Positions 25,204 to 38,410 of a stretch of DNA of 43,603 bases are shown piece by piece. The first letter of the stretch is position 1. The number at the start of each line of letters is the position of its first letter. Origin of the DNA: an uncultured bacterium (GTDB lineage: Bacteria; UBP6; UBA1177; JAKLFG01); contig CALMRE010000247.1 in the NCBI GenBank assembly GCA_937871295.1, positions 1 through 43,603 on the forward strand, written 5' to 3'. A program made the translations under genes and the position numbers. The notes beneath the pieces were generated by a model that ran no database searches, was not told where the DNA came from, and saw nothing but the letters and a program-made list of their open reading frames with translations.

Positions 25204-25222
25204 GCCGGTCGGCCGCTTTTTT
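25203..25222 (+). terminator. intrinsic terminator of the ispD-lnt operon
   Basis: GGCCG-GT-CGGCC (25203-25214, or a GGCC stem with a GGTC loop) is followed by GCTTTTTT. It starts in the lnt stop codon and separates lnt from the convergent lipoprotein gene. Confidence 0.75.
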
Positions 25223-26001
25223 CAGTAACAGTAGCCTTGAATGCAGGGCATGCCGCTGCAGCAGGTGTCGCGCGCGGAGCACCGTTCGCCCGCCGGTATG
25301 CACTCCATCACATTGACCATCATCAGCGCCGAACCGCCGGAGCACTGGACATCATCCTGACACAGGTACTGTTTCTCGGCGGCGCATTCGAAACACTCGG
25401 AGCGCTGGCTGTAGGAATTGTAGGTCTGACATTTGGTCTCGCCGACCTTGCAGGCGGCCTGAACGCATTGCGAACCGTTCATGTAGACCTCCCCCTGCGC
25501 GCAGATGCCGCAGACAGCGAGGGTGCCGGTGGTCGCGCATTTGAGTCCCAGAAGCCCCTTGTCCGCGTAACAGCAACCGGAGGGGCAGTTGGTTTCGCTG
25601 CAAGCGCCGCTTGAGGCGAGGGTGTTGAGACAGCGGCCCAGTTTTGTGTTGCAGGTGGTGTTGGGATAGTTCGCGCAATCGGCCGCGCTTTCACAGCCCT
25701 TTGCACATTTCGCCTTGACGCAGATGTCGGGCGCGCCGCAGTCGGAATCGAGTTTGCAGTTCGCCGGAGGCAGATCGTTGTCGGGCGAGATGTCTTCGCC
25801 GTCATCGGTATCCTCCGTTTCGGCGGCGTCGGGCAGATCGTTCTCGGTTTCGGGCAGACCGTCCTGCTCGACCGGACCGATGGGATCCTTGTCGCTGCCG
25901 ATGTCGCTATCGGTAATGTAGGGTACGGGATTGGGATCGCCGCAGGCGGCGATGAACAGCGCCGTCGTGCACAACAGGATGCGGACCACCGCCTTTCTCA
26001 T
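25222..26001 (-). CDS. Cys-rich lipoprotein under an ECF-type promoter
   Basis: A 259-residue predicted lipoprotein: lipobox I-A-A-C20, an Asp/Glu/Pro linker to about residue 80, then a domain with some thirty Cys. The pattern (NCKLDSDCGAPDICVKAKC, GCESAADCANYPNTTC, CPSGCCYADKG, CSARDTCCSGMPCIQGYCY) is of the small disulfide-rich, dickkopf/EB-like type common in myxococcal surface proteins. It is likely exported and held by disulfides; no enzymatic motif is seen. A GGAGG on the minus strand precedes the ATG. Its promoter at 26044-26073 matches the one upstream of the anti-sigma gene, linking it to the sigma-factor cluster. Confidence 0.78.
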   Translation of the reverse strand: MRKAVVRILLCTTALFIAACGDPNPVPYITDSDIGSDKDPIGPVEQDGLPETENDLPDAAETEDTDDGEDISPDNDLPPANCKLDSDCGAPDICVKAKCAKGCESAADCANYPNTTCNTKLGRCLNTLASSGACSETNCPSGCCYADKGLLGLKCATTGTLAVCGICAQGEVYMNGSQCVQAACKVGETKCQTYNSYSQRSECFECAAEKQYLCQDDVQCSGGSALMMVNVMECIPAGERCSARDTCCSGMPCIQGYCY

Positions 26002-28482: not shown

Positions 28483-29005
28483 CGCGACGGTTGTGATAAT
28501 TCCGTTCTTTCCGTTTTTCACGCAGGAGTTCACGCCGTTCCTTCTTCCGTTTGTCGGCGCTATCGTCCTCGGTTTCCTCTTCTTTGTCAATTTTTGATGT
28601 CGGCAGGAGCGGCGGCGGTGTCGCCGGAGCGGTCGGTTTCCGGAGGGGGCGCTCGGCGGCATCGGCAACGGGCGGCTCCGCTTTTTCGGGGGGCGTTACC
28701 CGTTCGGTCCGGTCGGTCGCCCTTTCCATGCGCCGCGGTGTTGCGGTGCGGTTGAGGAGGGGCGGTGCGGACCGTTTCACCGTCGGGGCGGGGATCGCCG
28801 CGTCGGCGTCGGGAATGAGGGGCGCGTCGGGCTGGGCGAGGACCGCGGGCGGCGGCGGCGGCAGGAAGCGCAGTTCCCAGCCGGGGGCGGTATTCCCTTC
28901 GATGATGCGCACGGTGCTGCCGGTTATCGGGTCGGCGGCGGCCGCAAGGGGAAGGGGGGTGAACAGGAGAGAAAGGATCGCGAGGCTAGTTGACCATCTG
29001 CTCAT
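28475..29005 (-). CDS. exported proline-rich protein of the sigma-factor operon
   Basis: A 176-residue protein with a signal peptide (SRWSTSLAILSLLFTPLPLA then AAADP). About 30 residues of possible beta structure follow (GSTVRIIEGNTAPGWELRFL), then a long disordered region rich in Pro, Ala, Arg and Glu, and a basic C-terminus (KRKKERRELLREKRKERN). It has no lipobox. Its gene overlaps the anti-sigma gene by 20 nt and the beta-barrel gene by 8 nt. A span of this type could cross or tether the periplasm, but no family is recognised. Confidence 0.68.
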   Translation of the reverse strand: MSRWSTSLAILSLLFTPLPLAAAADPITGSTVRIIEGNTAPGWELRFLPPPPPAVLAQPDAPLIPDADAAIPAPTVKRSAPPLLNRTATPRRMERATDRTERVTPPEKAEPPVADAAERPLRKPTAPATPPPLLPTSKIDKEEETEDDSADKRKKERRELLREKRKERNYHNRRVE

Positions 29006-29729
29006 CGGTGACCTCGGTTTTCAGGCGGTACTGGGCGATCACGACCTTGTAACCATCGGCCGAGAGGATGACGCGGTGCCGGTGCCGCAGACCCTCGTAT
29101 TCGGCGGTCGTGGCGATCTGCCAGACCCCTTTCTGAGCGACCGTGACGGCGAAGGGCACCGCGTTCTTGCCCTTTTTGAGCGGGCCTGACCAACTGAGGG
29201 TCTTCCGGGATGAGATATCGGGATGAGAACTGTAGAAGGAAAGGCCCGCCTCCAGTTCGATGGTCACCGTCACCGCGGCCAGATCGCGCGCCGCTTCGTA
29301 CTCGAGTTGGATGGTGACCGGTCCGCCGGCGGCGACCTCCGCTTTAGAGATAAGCGTTCCCTCGTCGCGGTCGCCGGTGCCGTCGGCGAAATAGAGCGCG
29401 GAGGCGAGGGCGACGACGAAGAGCGCCGCGACGCCGGTCAAGAGCGGCCGCGTGAAGAAGGAAAAACGCCGGGCGGGTGCCGCGGTGCGCCGTTCCTGCG
29501 CCGCTGTGACCAGTTTCAGGTGGAGCGTTTCGTCGAAGGCTGGGGGAAGGGGCATCGGGCTTTTTTTGAGGCCGTCGGCCGTTCCCTTGAGCGAACGGGC
29601 CACCGCGAACTCTTCGGCGCAGGAGGAACAGGAGGCGCAGTGCTCCCGCAGCCTTTTTTCCCCCGCATCGTCCAGCAGGCCGTTCAGCCAACCGACGATA
29701 AGTTCCCGATAGCCGTCACAATCTCGCAT
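28986..29729 (-). CDS. zinc-finger anti-sigma factor
   Basis: A 247-residue transmembrane anti-sigma factor. The cytoplasmic part has the ZAS motif H30-x3-C34-x2-C37 (REHCASCSSCAEEF), which holds the ECF sigma factor inactive. A transmembrane helix lies near residues 88-107 (LLTGVAALFVVALASALYF). An extracytoplasmic domain of about 135 residues with beta-sandwich character follows (GGPVTIQLEYEA, AAVTVTIELEAGLSFY, NAVPFAVTVAQKGVW), the likely sensor. The ATG at 29729 is preferred over GTG at 29738: GAGG lies just upstream, and the ECF-type promoter at 29753-29782 would start transcription near 29746, too close to the GTG. The gene is 37 nt downstream of the sigma gene. Confidence 0.83.
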   Translation of the reverse strand: MRDCDGYRELIVGWLNGLLDDAGEKRLREHCASCSSCAEEFAVARSLKGTADGLKKSPMPLPPAFDETLHLKLVTAAQERRTAAPARRFSFFTRPLLTGVAALFVVALASALYFADGTGDRDEGTLISKAEVAAGGPVTIQLEYEAARDLAAVTVTIELEAGLSFYSSHPDISSRKTLSWSGPLKKGKNAVPFAVTVAQKGVWQIATTAEYEGLRHRHRVILSADGYKVVIAQYRLKTEVTDEQMVN

Positions 29730-29752
29730 CTTCCTCACCGTGTGAACTGTCT

Positions 29753-29782
29753 AATAGACCGGACCATCATCTAAAAAGTTTC
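29753..29782 (-). promoter_or_regulatory. ECF-sigma-type promoter before the anti-sigma gene
   Basis: Minus-strand GAAACTT (29776-29782) and GTCTATT (29753-29759) are 16 bp apart. The -35 box lies inside the last codons of the sigma gene. It would drive the anti-sigma gene and the three exported-protein genes behind it. The only matching pair seen in the window is at 26044-26073. Confidence 0.62.
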
Positions 29783-30330
29783 TTATGTTCCAACGCCAAC
29801 TTAAAAAGATTTTCGCGCGCCCGGAACAGCCGCGATTTGATCGCGCTCTCCGAAACGCCCAGAAGGGCCGCCGCTTCGTCGTAGCGGAGTTCCTGCAGAT
29901 CGACCAGCGCTATCACCTCGCGGTGTTCGGCCGAAAGCATCCCGAGCATTCGGTGCAACTGTTCCCGCCGCTGTTCCTCGGCGAGCGTTTCGTCGAAATC
30001 GCGTCCTTTGGTCAGTTCCTTTTCGGGGATATCGTCGAGCGGCAGGTTGCCGGAGGTCTTCGGGCTCACACGGTAATCGACGAATTCGTTACGGGTGATC
30101 CGCCACAGCCACGTCATGAAGGAGCATTCGCCGCGGAACCGGGAGATATTGAGAAAAGCCTTGAGGAACGCCTCCTGCAGAACATCGGCCGCGGCCGCGT
30201 GGTCGCCTCCCGTCAGGCCCAGCGCGAAGGAGTAGAGCCCCTGCTTGTGATCCTTCACCAGTTCCTCGAAAGCGCGGACATCGCCGGCGACGGCCCGTTT
30301 GAGGAGTTCGTTCGTTCGTTCAACGGTCAT
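29767..30330 (-). CDS. ECF-family RNA polymerase sigma factor
   Basis: A 187-residue extracytoplasmic-function sigma factor. Region 2 covers about residues 20-88 (AFEELVKDHKQGLYSFALGL, ADVLQEAFLKAFLNISRFRG, FMTWLWRITRNEFVDYRV). Region 4 covers about 125-180 (EQLHRMLGMLSAEHREVIAL, LRYDEAAALLGVSESAIKSR, LFRARENLF). There is no region 3 or extra C-terminal domain. The gene heads a minus-strand cluster with a ZAS anti-sigma factor and three exported proteins, so it probably responds to an envelope or surface cue. Its own promoter looks sigma-70-like and is so close to the ATG that the mRNA may be leaderless. Confidence 0.92.
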   Translation of the reverse strand: MTVERTNELLKRAVAGDVRAFEELVKDHKQGLYSFALGLTGGDHAAAADVLQEAFLKAFLNISRFRGECSFMTWLWRITRNEFVDYRVSPKTSGNLPLDDIPEKELTKGRDFDETLAEEQRREQLHRMLGMLSAEHREVIALVDLQELRYDEAAALLGVSESAIKSRLFRARENLFKLALEHKKLFR

Positions 30331-33249: not shown

Positions 33250-34845
33250 TTAACCGCCGCAACTGCCGCCTTTCGGCGCCGGAGCGGGAGCGGTGCCCGG
33301 GGCCGGGGCGGTGGGAACGATGGCCTTCTCACAGCCCTTCTTGCCCGGGTTTTGGGTGCAGAACTGACGCTGGATGTCGGGGGCGGAGATGCCCGAGAAC
33401 TTGAACTTGTTGTTGGCGAGCCACGTCGGGCTGGCGCCGATCTCGAGACCGTTGGCGATCTTGATGTTCTCGCTGTGGAGTTTCCTGCCCTCGTCGCCGG
33501 TCGAACACTTCTCGATCTTCTTCGGGTCGATGCCGTTCACCGCGCACTTCTGCCATTCGGCCGAGCGGATATCGGGATTGCGGCACCAGATGTAATCCAT
33601 GTACTTGAAGTCCTTCGGGTAGTACTTCATGGCGCACAGTTGGCGGATGTTCTCATCGACCTCGGGCTGGCCGTGCAGGGCGTTGAATTTGCCGTCGGGC
33701 GTCTCGGTGGCGATGTAATTGACATGGAAGTCGATCTTGTTGCCGAACGCCTTGAGCACGTCCTTCATCGCGTCGAGCGCCTTGGTGCCGTAGGGGCACT
33801 GGCTCATGACGAACAGATCGAGCCGTTCCTTCATCTCCTTGCGGCAAACGAGGTTGTTCTTGCAGGTGTCGTCGTCGCAGTCGATCTTGCCGTCGCCGGT
33901 GTCGTCGATGGTGTTGTCGCATATCTCGGCGGTCGGGTCGAACTTGCCGCCCACGCGGAGCATTTTCTTGTCGTTGACATCGAGCATCCAGCGCTGGACC
34001 TGCTGGAACCCGGCATCCTCGGTCACATTCTTGTCGAACAGGAACGCCGGAAGCAGTTTCGCATCGGTTCCCTTAATGGTCTCGTAGAGTTTCTTTCCCT
34101 CATCGGTGCCGTAGTCGATCTTCTTCTCGACAAGGCCGGGGAAGATGTTCTTCATCTGGTTGATGATCGGATCGACCACGCAGTTCTTGCAGCGGGCGTC
34201 GGTCAGGACCGTCAGATCGACCTTCTTGGGGGCCGGGATCGATTTGCAGGCTTCCGGTTTGTTCTCCGGTTTGTAGGCGTTGCAGATGTTGCGGAGAAAA
34301 TCGTTCTCGGTGCGGCCGCCCTTGTAGCGTTCGCCGTTGACGAAGATGGTGGGGGAGCCGCTCGCCTGCTTTTCCTTTGAAGCGGTATAGGAGGCCGAAA
34401 GCAGTTTCTTGCCTTCGTCGCCGTCGGCGCAGGACTTGATCTTGGCGCCGTCGACTTTCGCCTCGGTGGCGCAAGCGTCGAAATTATTCGGGATCTCACG
34501 GTAGTTCTTGTTCATGCAGAACACGAGGTCGAGATATTTCTTGGGTTCGACCTTCGCGGCGCAGATCTCAAGCAGGTTGCCCTTGACCTCGTTCTCGCCG
34601 TGCATGGAGGAGAGCTGACCGTCCTTTTCCTGACCGATGAAGTGGCGGTTGAATTCTACCGCGTTGCCCAGTTTGTCGAGGACCGGCTTGATGCCGTTAT
34701 CGACCTGAACGCCGAAGGGACACTGCGACATGATGTGGAAATCGACCTTTACCTTCTCTTTGGCGGCGCCGCCCTTCTTGAGCTGGTCGCAACCAGACAG
34801 CAGTAACGCAGTGGCGGCCATCGCCACGATGATGAACTTTTTCAC
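33250..34845 (-). CDS. lipoprotein with tandem GILT/DsbA-like thioredoxin folds
   Basis: A 531-residue predicted lipoprotein, lipobox L-S-G-C19 with Asp at +2. It has three thioredoxin-like parts. Part 1 (about 32-200) has SQCPFG at C42, HGENEVKGNLLEIC and the cis-Pro-like GSPTIFVNGERYKGG. Part 2 (about 208-300) has a true CxxC, C219-K-N-C222. Part 3 (about 340-505) repeats part 1 with SQCPYG at C350, HGQPEVDENIRQLC and GASPTWLANNKF. The outer parts resemble GILT/DsbA reductases but keep only the first active-site Cys. A MopE-like metal-binding stretch (ICDNTIDDTGDGKIDCDDDT, about 308-327) joins parts 2 and 3; the tail is Pro-Ala-rich and ends SCGG. It lacks the Asp linker of its neighbours. 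GTG at 34845 lies 6 nt after GGAGG; the ATG at 34851 abuts that site. Confidence 0.8.
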   Translation of the reverse strand: MKKFIIVAMAATALLLSGCDQLKKGGAAKEKVKVDFHIMSQCPFGVQVDNGIKPVLDKLGNAVEFNRHFIGQEKDGQLSSMHGENEVKGNLLEICAAKVEPKKYLDLVFCMNKNYREIPNNFDACATEAKVDGAKIKSCADGDEGKKLLSASYTASKEKQASGSPTIFVNGERYKGGRTENDFLRNICNAYKPENKPEACKSIPAPKKVDLTVLTDARCKNCVVDPIINQMKNIFPGLVEKKIDYGTDEGKKLYETIKGTDAKLLPAFLFDKNVTEDAGFQQVQRWMLDVNDKKMLRVGGKFDPTAEICDNTIDDTGDGKIDCDDDTCKNNLVCRKEMKERLDLFVMSQCPYGTKALDAMKDVLKAFGNKIDFHVNYIATETPDGKFNALHGQPEVDENIRQLCAMKYYPKDFKYMDYIWCRNPDIRSAEWQKCAVNGIDPKKIEKCSTGDEGRKLHSENIKIANGLEIGASPTWLANNKFKFSGISAPDIQRQFCTQNPGKKGCEKAIVPTAPAPGTAPAPAPKGGSCGG

Positions 34846-34873
34846 AGGCATCCTCCGATAATTATTTGATAAA

Positions 34874-36636: not shown

Positions 36637-36667
36637 GGCGGCGACTTTTTTTCACGGAGGTGCGCCG

Positions 36668-38410
36668 GTGAAAAAGGCGTTCGTGTTACCGTTCATGTTC
36701 CTCTCTCTGGTCGCTTGCACGCCGGTCGAGGAGGGTGCTCTCATCATCACCGGCGACGGTGAGATTGGGGAAAAGGAGGTCGTCGACAATGATCCGTCGG
36801 ATCCGTCGGATCAGACCGATCTGTCTGATCTGTCCGACGACTTTGTGGTCGTCGATGAGATCATCGTGGACGAGACACCCGATATCGACGAGCCGGTCGT
36901 TGAATTCGACCCGCCCGACCTGACCGTCGCGCCGGTCGCCTACATCGTGACGGTCGAGGCCTTCCGTAAGACCTTTGAGTTGCTTGCGATACTTCACAGC
37001 GCTATCGGCCTGCCGACGGCGGTGGCGACGGTCGAGGATATCTGCGGCGGCTCCTGCGACGAAGGTGATCCGCGCAACGATACGGCGGCGGCGATAAAGG
37101 CGTGGGCGTTGACCCGTCCGGGGCTTCAGCATCTTATTCTCGGCGGCGATATCGAGGTGGTGCCGTCGCGCGCCGTCCATGACAAATACTCGAATATCGT
37201 CGCCGGTACCTATGAGGAGGATTTCAAGAGCGACCACTACTACGCCGATCTTTCCGAATGGGACGGCAACCACAACGGCATTTACGCCGAAGATACCGGC
37301 GACAGCCCCGACCTGCTTCCCGAGTTGGCGGTCTCGCGCATCCCGGTCTCCGACGATATCGAGGCGGCCCGCTATGTGGCCAAAGCGCGTCGCTATCTGA
37401 CCGCCTACAACGCCGCCGATATGCAGAAGGCGCTTCTTATCGCCAATGTCGCGACCAATTACAATGGGATAGATATCAACGCCGGTTACTACTTCGAGAA
37501 TGAAGGACGGACCGTATCGGCTATTCCACCGAGTTTCACGATACGGCGGCTCTATGCATCGACCTTCCCGCCGCCGAGCCTGTCGGCCGAGACCTTGACG
37601 CTCGCCAAGGAGGAGGAGGCGCTGGAGGCGGGGACCAATATCGTGGTTCATAACGGCCACGGCTACCCGAGCCTGCTGACCTGCGAACAGGTGGGCGACG
37701 ATCTCGATTTCACCGGCGCGATGGCCTATGCGCTGACCAACCAGACGCCGCTGGTGTTCCTTTCGGGCGCCTGTCAGGCGGGACAGTTCGAGGCTCCCTT
37801 CACCTGGCATTACACCAACAGCGCGGGAGAGGCGAAAGAGAAGGTATTCACCGACGATTCGGCGGGCGAACTGCTGGTCAACGCCCCCAACGGCGGCGCC
37901 GTCATCTACCTCGGCAACACCACCACCGGCCTCGGCCTCGCCGGGGGAAGTCAGCTTATCGATGAACTCCTGAAGTATGCCTTCGCCAACCCGCGGCCGC
38001 TCGCCGGAGATGCGCTCCGGGCGGCGCGGATCGCCCTACCGCAAAACGACACCTTCACCCCGCCGGTCGTTTCGGTGCCCCTGCCGGTGGTCGATCCCGA
38101 CAGTTGGGCATGGACGCAGAAGGCGACGGTGCTGCTCGGCGACGGGGCGTTGCCGCTGTGGACCGTGGCGACGCCGGTGTCGAATCTGCCGCTGTTCAGC
38201 GTCGAAAAGGTGAACGGCGGGGCGCGGATAACGATGACCCATATCCCGGAGGGGGCGACGGGGCGCATCCATTTCTGCGGCAACTACTACACCGTTGCGG
38301 CGGGGGAGACCGAAAAGACCGTTGCCGCGCCGGGCGATTGCCTCACCGCCGAGGCGGCCCTTTCGTCGCCGACCGCGCAGTACTGGTTCGATTCAATATC
38401 GGTATTCTAA
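36668..38410 (+). CDS. C25 (gingipain-like) cysteine peptidase lipoprotein
   Basis: A 580-residue predicted lipoprotein, lipobox L-V-A-C17, with an Asp-rich linker to about residue 85 that includes five DPS/DQT/DLS triplets. Residues of about 90-460 match the C25 fold: YIVTVEAFRKTFELLAILHS, LQHLILGGDIEVVPSR, the DHYYADLSEWDGNHNGIYAE block and LLPELAVSRIPV. The catalytic dyad is H331 in VHNGHG and C369 in LSGACQAG, and GAVIYLGNTTTG follows. A C-terminal beta-domain of about 90 residues has two Cys. Family members are secreted proteases or, in Bacteroidota, the PorU sortase. No LolA or type IX signal is seen. GTG follows GGAGG by 7 nt. Activity is likely but its target is unknown. Confidence 0.82.
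   Translation: MKKAFVLPFMFLSLVACTPVEEGALIITGDGEIGEKEVVDNDPSDPSDQTDLSDLSDDFVVVDEIIVDETPDIDEPVVEFDPPDLTVAPVAYIVTVEAFRKTFELLAILHSAIGLPTAVATVEDICGGSCDEGDPRNDTAAAIKAWALTRPGLQHLILGGDIEVVPSRAVHDKYSNIVAGTYEEDFKSDHYYADLSEWDGNHNGIYAEDTGDSPDLLPELAVSRIPVSDDIEAARYVAKARRYLTAYNAADMQKALLIANVATNYNGIDINAGYYFENEGRTVSAIPPSFTIRRLYASTFPPPSLSAETLTLAKEEEALEAGTNIVVHNGHGYPSLLTCEQVGDDLDFTGAMAYALTNQTPLVFLSGACQAGQFEAPFTWHYTNSAGEAKEKVFTDDSAGELLVNAPNGGAVIYLGNTTTGLGLAGGSQLIDELLKYAFANPRPLAGDALRAARIALPQNDTFTPPVVSVPLPVVDPDSWAWTQKATVLLGDGALPLWTVATPVSNLPLFSVEKVNGGARITMTHIPEGATGRIHFCGNYYTVAAGETEKTVAAPGDCLTAEAALSSPTAQYWFDSISVF
36791..36835 (+). repeat. five 9-bp linker repeats
   Basis: Five 9-bp units begin with GAT: two perfect GATCCGTCG copies, then GATCAGACC, GATCTGTCT and GATCTGTCC. 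They encode DPS-DPS-DQT-DLS-DLS in the linker of the C25 peptidase lipoprotein. Confidence 0.75.

Follow-up and report, generated by a model that had tools for sequence, protein, structure and literature searches.

GILT is an animal lysosomal reductase that uses a CxxC active site, and the signature of its family is CQHGxxECxxNxxxxC. ERp44 and TMX5 (PDI family, CRFS), two eukaryotic ER proteins, trap clients at one-Cys thioredoxin-like sites, and ERp44 has a flexible tail besides its three thioredoxin-like units. According to one report, a CxxS mutant of mouse GILT keeps a lower reducing activity, starting the reaction and not completing it, and the natural CxxS protein mosGILT of insects has no detectable reductase activity (PMC6060088). 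Two others describe TMX5, which has CRFS, as a naturally occurring trapping protein (PMC11443168) and SdbA as able to catalyse oxidation through just one of the two Cys in its CxxC (PMC12453122).

The window analysed here, the whole stretch of 43,603 nucleotides, encodes a putative lipoprotein that resembles GILT (IFI30, PF03227, 6nwx) in predicted fold (Z 22), in having both GILT-like parts over the profile cut-off, in six Cys outside the active site of each part and in HG..E...C. It is unlike GILT in that its sites have one Cys and not CxxC, that neither inner Cys of CQHGxxEC is present, that the GILT-like domain is duplicated and fused to a CxxC domain, a linker and a Cys tail, and that the protein is bacterial and, by its predicted lipobox, lipid-anchored. 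It resembles mosGILT (CxxS) in its GILT-like domain with a lone active-site Cys and in having an extended C terminus, whereas mosGILT is eukaryotic, has a hydrophobic C terminus, is 19% identical to human GILT and, in the available text of its description, comes with no mention of a fused CxxC domain (PMC6060088). The comparison with ERp44 and TMX5, which are eukaryotic, concerns how such proteins work; no sequence relation is claimed. Our literature searches, which covered few subscription journals, listed no published account of a bacterial GILT-like lipoprotein, a weak negative.

Architecture of the three-part lipoprotein

The gene occupies positions 33250-34845 of the minus strand and encodes 531 amino acids from a GTG at 34845. 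An alternative ATG at 34851 opens a 533-residue ORF (33250-34851, minus strand), and residues are numbered here from that ATG. Because the GTG is preceded by GGAGG at a spacing of six bases and is kept in the relatives L007 and L008, in which the ATG is absent at that place, the GTG at 34845 is the likely start codon. The predicted signal peptide and its lipobox LLSGC (34789-34845, minus strand, like all features of this gene) end at Cys21 (34789-34791), the putative acylated residue, whose alignment column is invariant in 24/24 orthologs. Part 1, a GILT-like domain (34234-34758; residues about 32-206), contains the lone Cys44 of CPFG (34720-34722) and an SPT loop of the cis-Pro type. It is followed by part 2, a small thioredoxin-like domain (33940-34236; residues 206-304) with CKNC (Cys221 and Cys224, 34180-34191) and LP, and by a linker made of one acidic double-disulfide repeat (33844-33936; residues 306-336) with Cys 311, 325, 330 and 336 (CDNTIDDTGDGKIDCDDDTCKNNLVC). 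Part 3, the second GILT-like domain (33322-33831; residues 341-510), contains the lone Cys352 of CPYG (33796-33798) and further Cys at 406, 423, 436, 449, 498 and 507, and the Pro/Ala/Gly-rich C-terminal tail (33253-33330) ends in KGGSCGG with Cys531 (33259-33261). The sequence-only reading had described a lipoprotein with two single-Cys GILT-like parts around a CKNC part, and that description held: PF03227 was matched twice over its cut-off, the lipobox is LLSGC, and the CPFG/CPYG, HG..E..[ND]...C and SPT motifs are all present. We are highly confident of this domain architecture and of the thioredoxin-like folds predicted for it.

The Pfam GILT model PF03227 (cut-off 22.4 bits) gave 45.1 bits for part 1 and 43.0 bits for part 3 and matched 24/24 orthologs in a profile search, and hhalign showed the two parts to be homologous, with 34% identity across 157 aligned columns (E 2e-38). 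An AlphaFold2 model of the mature protein, built with the 24 orthologs, had a mean pLDDT of 85.2 and a pTM of 0.47, indicating that its single domains are trustworthy and their mutual arrangement is not. The best PDB match of predicted part 1 was mouse GILT 6nwx (Foldseek E 2.5e-8; Z 22.0 over 173 residues, rmsd 2.4), followed by the plant vacuolar sorting receptor VSR1 (Z 17.5) and Staphylococcus aureus DsbA (Z 16.9), and part 3 (model residues 312-485) matched DsbA-type folds at a Z of about 13.9. The DsbA family and Thioredoxin_4 (PF01323, PF13462) belong to the same superfamily and gave weak profile matches to the C-terminal half of part 1; the same holds for the Rcas_1661 family (seleno)lipoproteins (NF041057), with 20 bits for the lipoprotein, far under that model's cut-off of 190. 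Structure prediction of the three parts, proposed as a check on the sequence-only reading, returned a thioredoxin-like fold for each, a probable one in the case of part 2.

In the sequence alignment, Cys 97, 112, 127, 141, 190 and 202 of part 1 face cysteines of mouse GILT, and six of the seven Cys in this part are probably structural. The active site is CPYG, CPFG or CPFT in all 48 GILT-like parts of the 24 orthologs and CxxC in none, and cis-Pro-type loops are retained in all three parts. The GILT signature, visible in the mouse sequence, lacks both inner Cys of CQHGxxEC in the lipoprotein, and its HG, E and last Cys are retained in most orthologs; in L027 and L028 (genus g7), part 1 lacks the H of the HG motif, part 3 lacks HG, and the Pfam model detects just one of the two parts. 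Because both the CxxC and the full signature are absent, we call the lipoprotein GILT-like, which it is by profile, predicted fold and Cys frame, and not a GILT enzyme. Two outcomes had been named in advance as counting against the original proposal, folds that are not thioredoxin-like and Cys pairs that are all structural. The answer is a half one: the predicted folds are thioredoxin-like, and most of the Cys in part 1 are probably structural, leaving C44, C352, C531 and the CxxC as candidates for chemistry.

Part 2 was modelled separately from 22 sequences, comprising 18 of the 24 orthologs (near-copies left out), two from other phyla and two paralogs, and its AlphaFold2 model (pLDDT 86.3, pTM 0.77) runs strand-helix-strand-helix-strand, with the CxxC, ahead of helix 1, and the cis-Pro-type LP invariant in 22/22. 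Foldseek ranked 1a8l, a protein disulfide oxidoreductase from an archaeon, first (E 5.7e-4, probability 1.00), and a sequence profile search also found this family, aligning both Cys with those of 1j08 (E 3.6e-4) and 1a8l (E 7.7e-4); a second structure comparison gave a best Z of just 6.5, with KaiB tied with thioredoxins. Part 2 resembles archaeal protein disulfide oxidoreductases and thioredoxins in profile, Cys pair and best Foldseek match, and is unlike the archaeal enzyme in being a single short unit within a larger lipoprotein, with a weak Z. It is probably thioredoxin-like, its closer family not being proven by these profiles and models.

Between parts 2 and 3 a MopE-like metal site had been proposed. 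The linker instead matched the NCBIfam model NF033662 ('acid_disulf_rpt') in 24/24 orthologs at E ≤0.05 (best E 1.7e-9), the window copy, with one repeat copy, scoring 19.4 bits, under the 41-bit cut-off. No MopE family appeared among the Pfam matches, taken at E ≤1 for the window copy and at E ≤0.05 for the orthologs. The linker is thus like a MopE-type motif in being an acidic, Cys-containing repeat and unlike it in its Pfam matches, fitting NF033662, and we rejected the MopE site in favour of an acidic double-disulfide repeat.

Cysteine conservation and distribution

Each of the 24 orthologs from the order has exactly 22 Cys, with all 22 columns invariant and no extra Cys, in an alignment where 142 of 530 columns are invariant across all 24, and this conservation of Cys is far beyond chance. 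One of the 22 is the predicted acylated residue, six belong to part 1, six to part 3 (assigned by homology with part 1, the last of them lying beyond that alignment), with four more in the linker and two in the CxxC, the remainder being C44, C352 and C531. The same 22 Cys can be aligned in two orthologs from other phyla (G118 and G212).

The invariant tail Cys, C531, had been absent from the earlier description. After Cys507 only this Cys and the Gly that follows it are invariant, and the tail is otherwise variable, with a pLDDT below 50 over mature residues 495-513 (low confidence, flexible in the model); in the G212 ortholog it is an enlarged Gly-rich arm with three Cys. We also considered the tail as a general sorting signal and rejected this, since 19 of the 45 lipobox ORFs examined carry a Cys at one of their final five positions, the Gly-rich CG ending being limited to the 10 orthologs among them, and a whole-genome search with a DNA pattern for this ending returned 9 matches versus 7 for the reversed control.

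Full-length orthologs were found in 24 of the 28 genomes of the phylum. Within the order they are present in 24 of 25 genomes, the exception (G005) being 65% complete, and in none of the three genomes of the other family, f4, where weak matches correspond to other proteins: L030 and L031 are tandem DsbA-type proteins, and the match in G002 covers the acidic repeat region. What is new here is this order-wide set of full-length orthologs with 22 Cys invariant in alignment. In a sample of 386 genomes, 358 lay outside the phylum and six of these had a GILT match. Two of the six (G118 and G212) encode the same three-part protein. Two others (G206 and G340) have a GILT-like part, with CPYS and CPYA, respectively, inside a longer protein whose middle domain has no CxxC, and the last two (G283 and G146) have a single GILT-like domain, with CPYG and CPYT, respectively. 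Both longer proteins (L062 in G206 and L064 in G340) include two further thioredoxin-like parts without CxxC, and in L062, in which alone this label was tested, a UshA-like PCGU-family part is fused to the GILT-like domain.

Across all of these, every bacterial GILT-like site that we read, 56/56 (48 in the order and 8 outside), has one active-site Cys. The suggestion that the lipoprotein had lost the second Cys is therefore borne out as far as one Cys per site goes, but the condition is not specific to this protein, being the rule in the bacterial sample, and a loss cannot be dated.

Two paralogs depart from this plan. L033 (G007, contig C59) has CPHG and CTNC and is without part 1 and the Cys tail, and L034 (G008) keeps CQKC and has no Cys at the GILT-like site. 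In L033, parts 2 and 3 are fused not to part 1 but to repeated modules containing Cys and Trp (GCWGD...).

Families f1 and f3 form supported clades in the tree, which led us to reject horizontal spread inside the order, where inheritance looks vertical from the sequences; for the G118 and G212 copies, which sit on long branches, the joining (support 90/89) may be false. Plasmids gave no match, none of seven pattern matches in viral contigs was a relative, and a scan of reference genome contigs returned only three close relatives.

Candidate thiol chemistry

With one CxxC and lone active-site Cys, a disulfide relay or isomerase, as first suggested, remains a fair reading of the sequence and models. 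The version that we favour, tentatively and at somewhat less than even confidence, is an envelope-anchored thiol-disulfide exchange protein in which the lone Cys would capture and the CxxC or the tail would resolve, its chemistry, partners and substrates all being putative. A substrate whose disulfide C44 or C352 attacks (or whose thiol they accept) would stay bound to them through a mixed disulfide; part 2 with its CKNC, the tail with its Cys531, or both would then resolve this bond in cis, and the Cys-rich lipoproteins of the host bacteria would be the substrates of the resulting disulfide isomerase or reductase. Eight structural pairs (3 + 3 + 2) that just hold the fold would account for the remaining six Cys of either GILT-like part and for all four in the linker. 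We propose a resolver in cis because each lone site is without a second, releasing Cys and because the one-Cys precedents in GILT and TMX5 suggest that such a site needs one. Two candidates, the CKNC and Cys531, are present in the same chain, and their reach to C44 or C352 is a candidate arrangement only, as domain placement in the model is unsure (pTM 0.47). Such a resolver may not be a universal need, given that the proteins of G206, G340, G283 and G146 keep the lone Cys without the CxxC of part 2 or the tail. The two paralogs also speak against the proposal, L033 having its lone Cys and CTNC without part 1 and the tail, and L034 its CQKC without a Cys at the GILT-like site.

The same lone Cys could serve retention: as a covalent holdase for quality control, in the manner of ERp44 or TMX5, the protein would retain unfinished Cys-rich lipoproteins in mixed disulfides without fast turnover, the central CxxC acting as a slow release switch and the tail shielding an active site. 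One-Cys sites in both GILT-like parts of 24/24 orthologs fit such a role, as does the ERp44-like combination of a flexible tail with three thioredoxin-like units. The invariant CxxC and tail Cys, however, argue for turnover, and no conserved neighbour suggests a client, so that we consider a holdase unlikely, even with natural trapping proteins such as TMX5 on record (PMC11443168).

Redox partners, gene neighbourhood and weaker alternatives

Returning to thiol-disulfide exchange, we surveyed possible redox partners by profile search. DsbB was found in 0/28 genomes (the control matched in 6/14), and VKOR in 0/25 genomes of the order and in 3/3 of f4. DsbD_TM was found in 7/25 genomes of the order, including that of the window (G000), in 0/15 of genus g8, and in 3/3 of f4, one of them under the cut-off. 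A reductase cycle in the 15 g8 genomes, none of which has a DsbD-type donor, would thus need another donor. Some organisms, according to one source, have no regenerating partner for their DsbA-like proteins, and obligate anaerobes tend to keep cysteines out of exported proteins (PMC12453122).

A triple-DsbA protein (Thioredoxin_4 profile) is encoded in 24/25 genomes of the order, with none in G027, which is 59% complete; its first domain has a one-Cys CPFS site in 23/23 readable cases, and most later domains have CxxC. Like the three-part lipoprotein, this exported protein has thioredoxin-like domains of both the one-Cys and the two-Cys kind; the two are separate, and its G000 copy is the genome's own NF041057 member (L189; contig C267, 5547-7313), scoring 194.9 bits against the cut-off of 190.

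By a crude lipobox rule applied to small samples, ORFs with a lipobox had at least eight Cys in 6/9 cases in G000 (206 kb; the figure includes the three-part lipoprotein itself), 5/12 in G023 (385 kb) and 0/6 in G003, a member of f4 (274 kb). The expected co-occurrence with Cys-rich lipoproteins is therefore seen in that these are common in the sampled G000 and G023, but no link to a particular Cys-rich neighbour emerged.

These distributions bear on a disulfide-forming oxidase that would replace DsbA-DsbB/VKOR and be recharged by polysulfide, cystine or the triple-DsbA lipoprotein. DsbB in 0/28 genomes, VKOR in 0/25 of the order versus 3/3 in f4, a family without the lipoprotein, the presence of Cys-rich lipoproteins and the triple-DsbA protein in 24/25 genomes are all consistent with it. 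Yet the usual CPFC sites are in the triple-DsbA protein and not in the three-part lipoprotein, so that the former would suffice; the VKOR contrast counts as a single evolutionary event, and the lineages that it separates differ greatly (28% versus 45-53% GC in the sampled DNA); and some other oxidase could account for the absence of DsbB and VKOR. We judge an oxidase quite improbable. Equally doubtful is a self-contained disulfide relay that would replace the usual Dsb machinery with a swinging Cys arm and the triple-DsbA lipoprotein; its two one-Cys GILT-like domains would capture substrate while the Cys arm shuttled electrons between them and the CxxC core, in an order that would export Cys-rich lipoproteins with neither DsbB nor VKOR.

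The lipoprotein-type gene that adjoins downstream, of IgGFc type, encodes 29 Cys and was matched in none of the 26 neighbourhoods that we compared, one of the same genus included. No neighbour gene was linked to the lipoprotein gene across the order: CorC adjoins it only in families f1 and f2, and an Mntp-type efflux gene lies near it in f1. With the IgGFc-type neighbour unmatched and no gene linked order-wide, we rejected an operon or a client next door. Elsewhere in the window, a 259-residue lipoprotein-like ORF with 30 Cys (25222-26001, minus strand) has the same gene context in G006 and G008, and a sigma-70-family gene followed by a gene with HCASCSSC, presumably a Cys motif of the anti-sigma type (28986-30330, minus strand), is conserved in f1. 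A lipoprotein-like member of peptidase family C25 (PF01364, 150 bits; 36665-38410, plus strand) is kept in G006 and G007.

The Cys might also take no part in chemistry, the GILT-like folds serving, like those of plant vacuolar sorting receptors, as scaffolds of a non-redox binding protein whose Cys are all structural or link the tails of a dimer. VSR1 as second-best fold match (Z 17.5) points this way, together with a vacuolar sorting receptor Pfam model that matches 22/24 orthologs at E ≤0.05 (the window copy under its cut-off), and mosGILT is reported to block parasite traversal in a way that does not depend on its lone active-site Cys (PMC6060088). Against it, C44, C352 and the CxxC are kept in every ortholog with cis-Pro-type loops, as thiol exchange needs, and permanent pairing would leave an odd number of lone Cys per chain. 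This reading is rather improbable, a little more so than an oxidase.

In G212, the ortholog shares its strand with two transporter genes, one for the arsenite transporter ACR3 (452 bits) and one of ArsG type (262 bits); that locus (L089, 802-5739) also contains a small ORF with a CSTC motif, which we take to be ArsF. Least probable of all, and very unlikely, is a thiol-rich protein that binds or senses metals or metalloids, with thiols binding arsenic or soft metals and the acidic repeat calcium: the G212 arrangement and the Mntp-type efflux and CorC-type genes nearby in f1 speak for it, but no such arsenic genes were seen by eye among the ORFs listed beside the G118 ortholog, no neighbour is shared order-wide, and cis-Pro-type loops in all three parts point to thiol exchange.

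In contrast to animal GILT with its CxxC, the bacterial GILT-like domains are one-Cys throughout our sample, and they form part of a lipoprotein that occurs across the order, looks vertically inherited and ends in a tail whose Cys is invariant. Such proteins, provided that their lone sites are active, would be natural mixed-disulfide traps with a built-in resolver. They also make testable the question of how disulfides may be made or corrected in bacteria that have Cys-rich envelope proteins and no recognised DsbB or VKOR.
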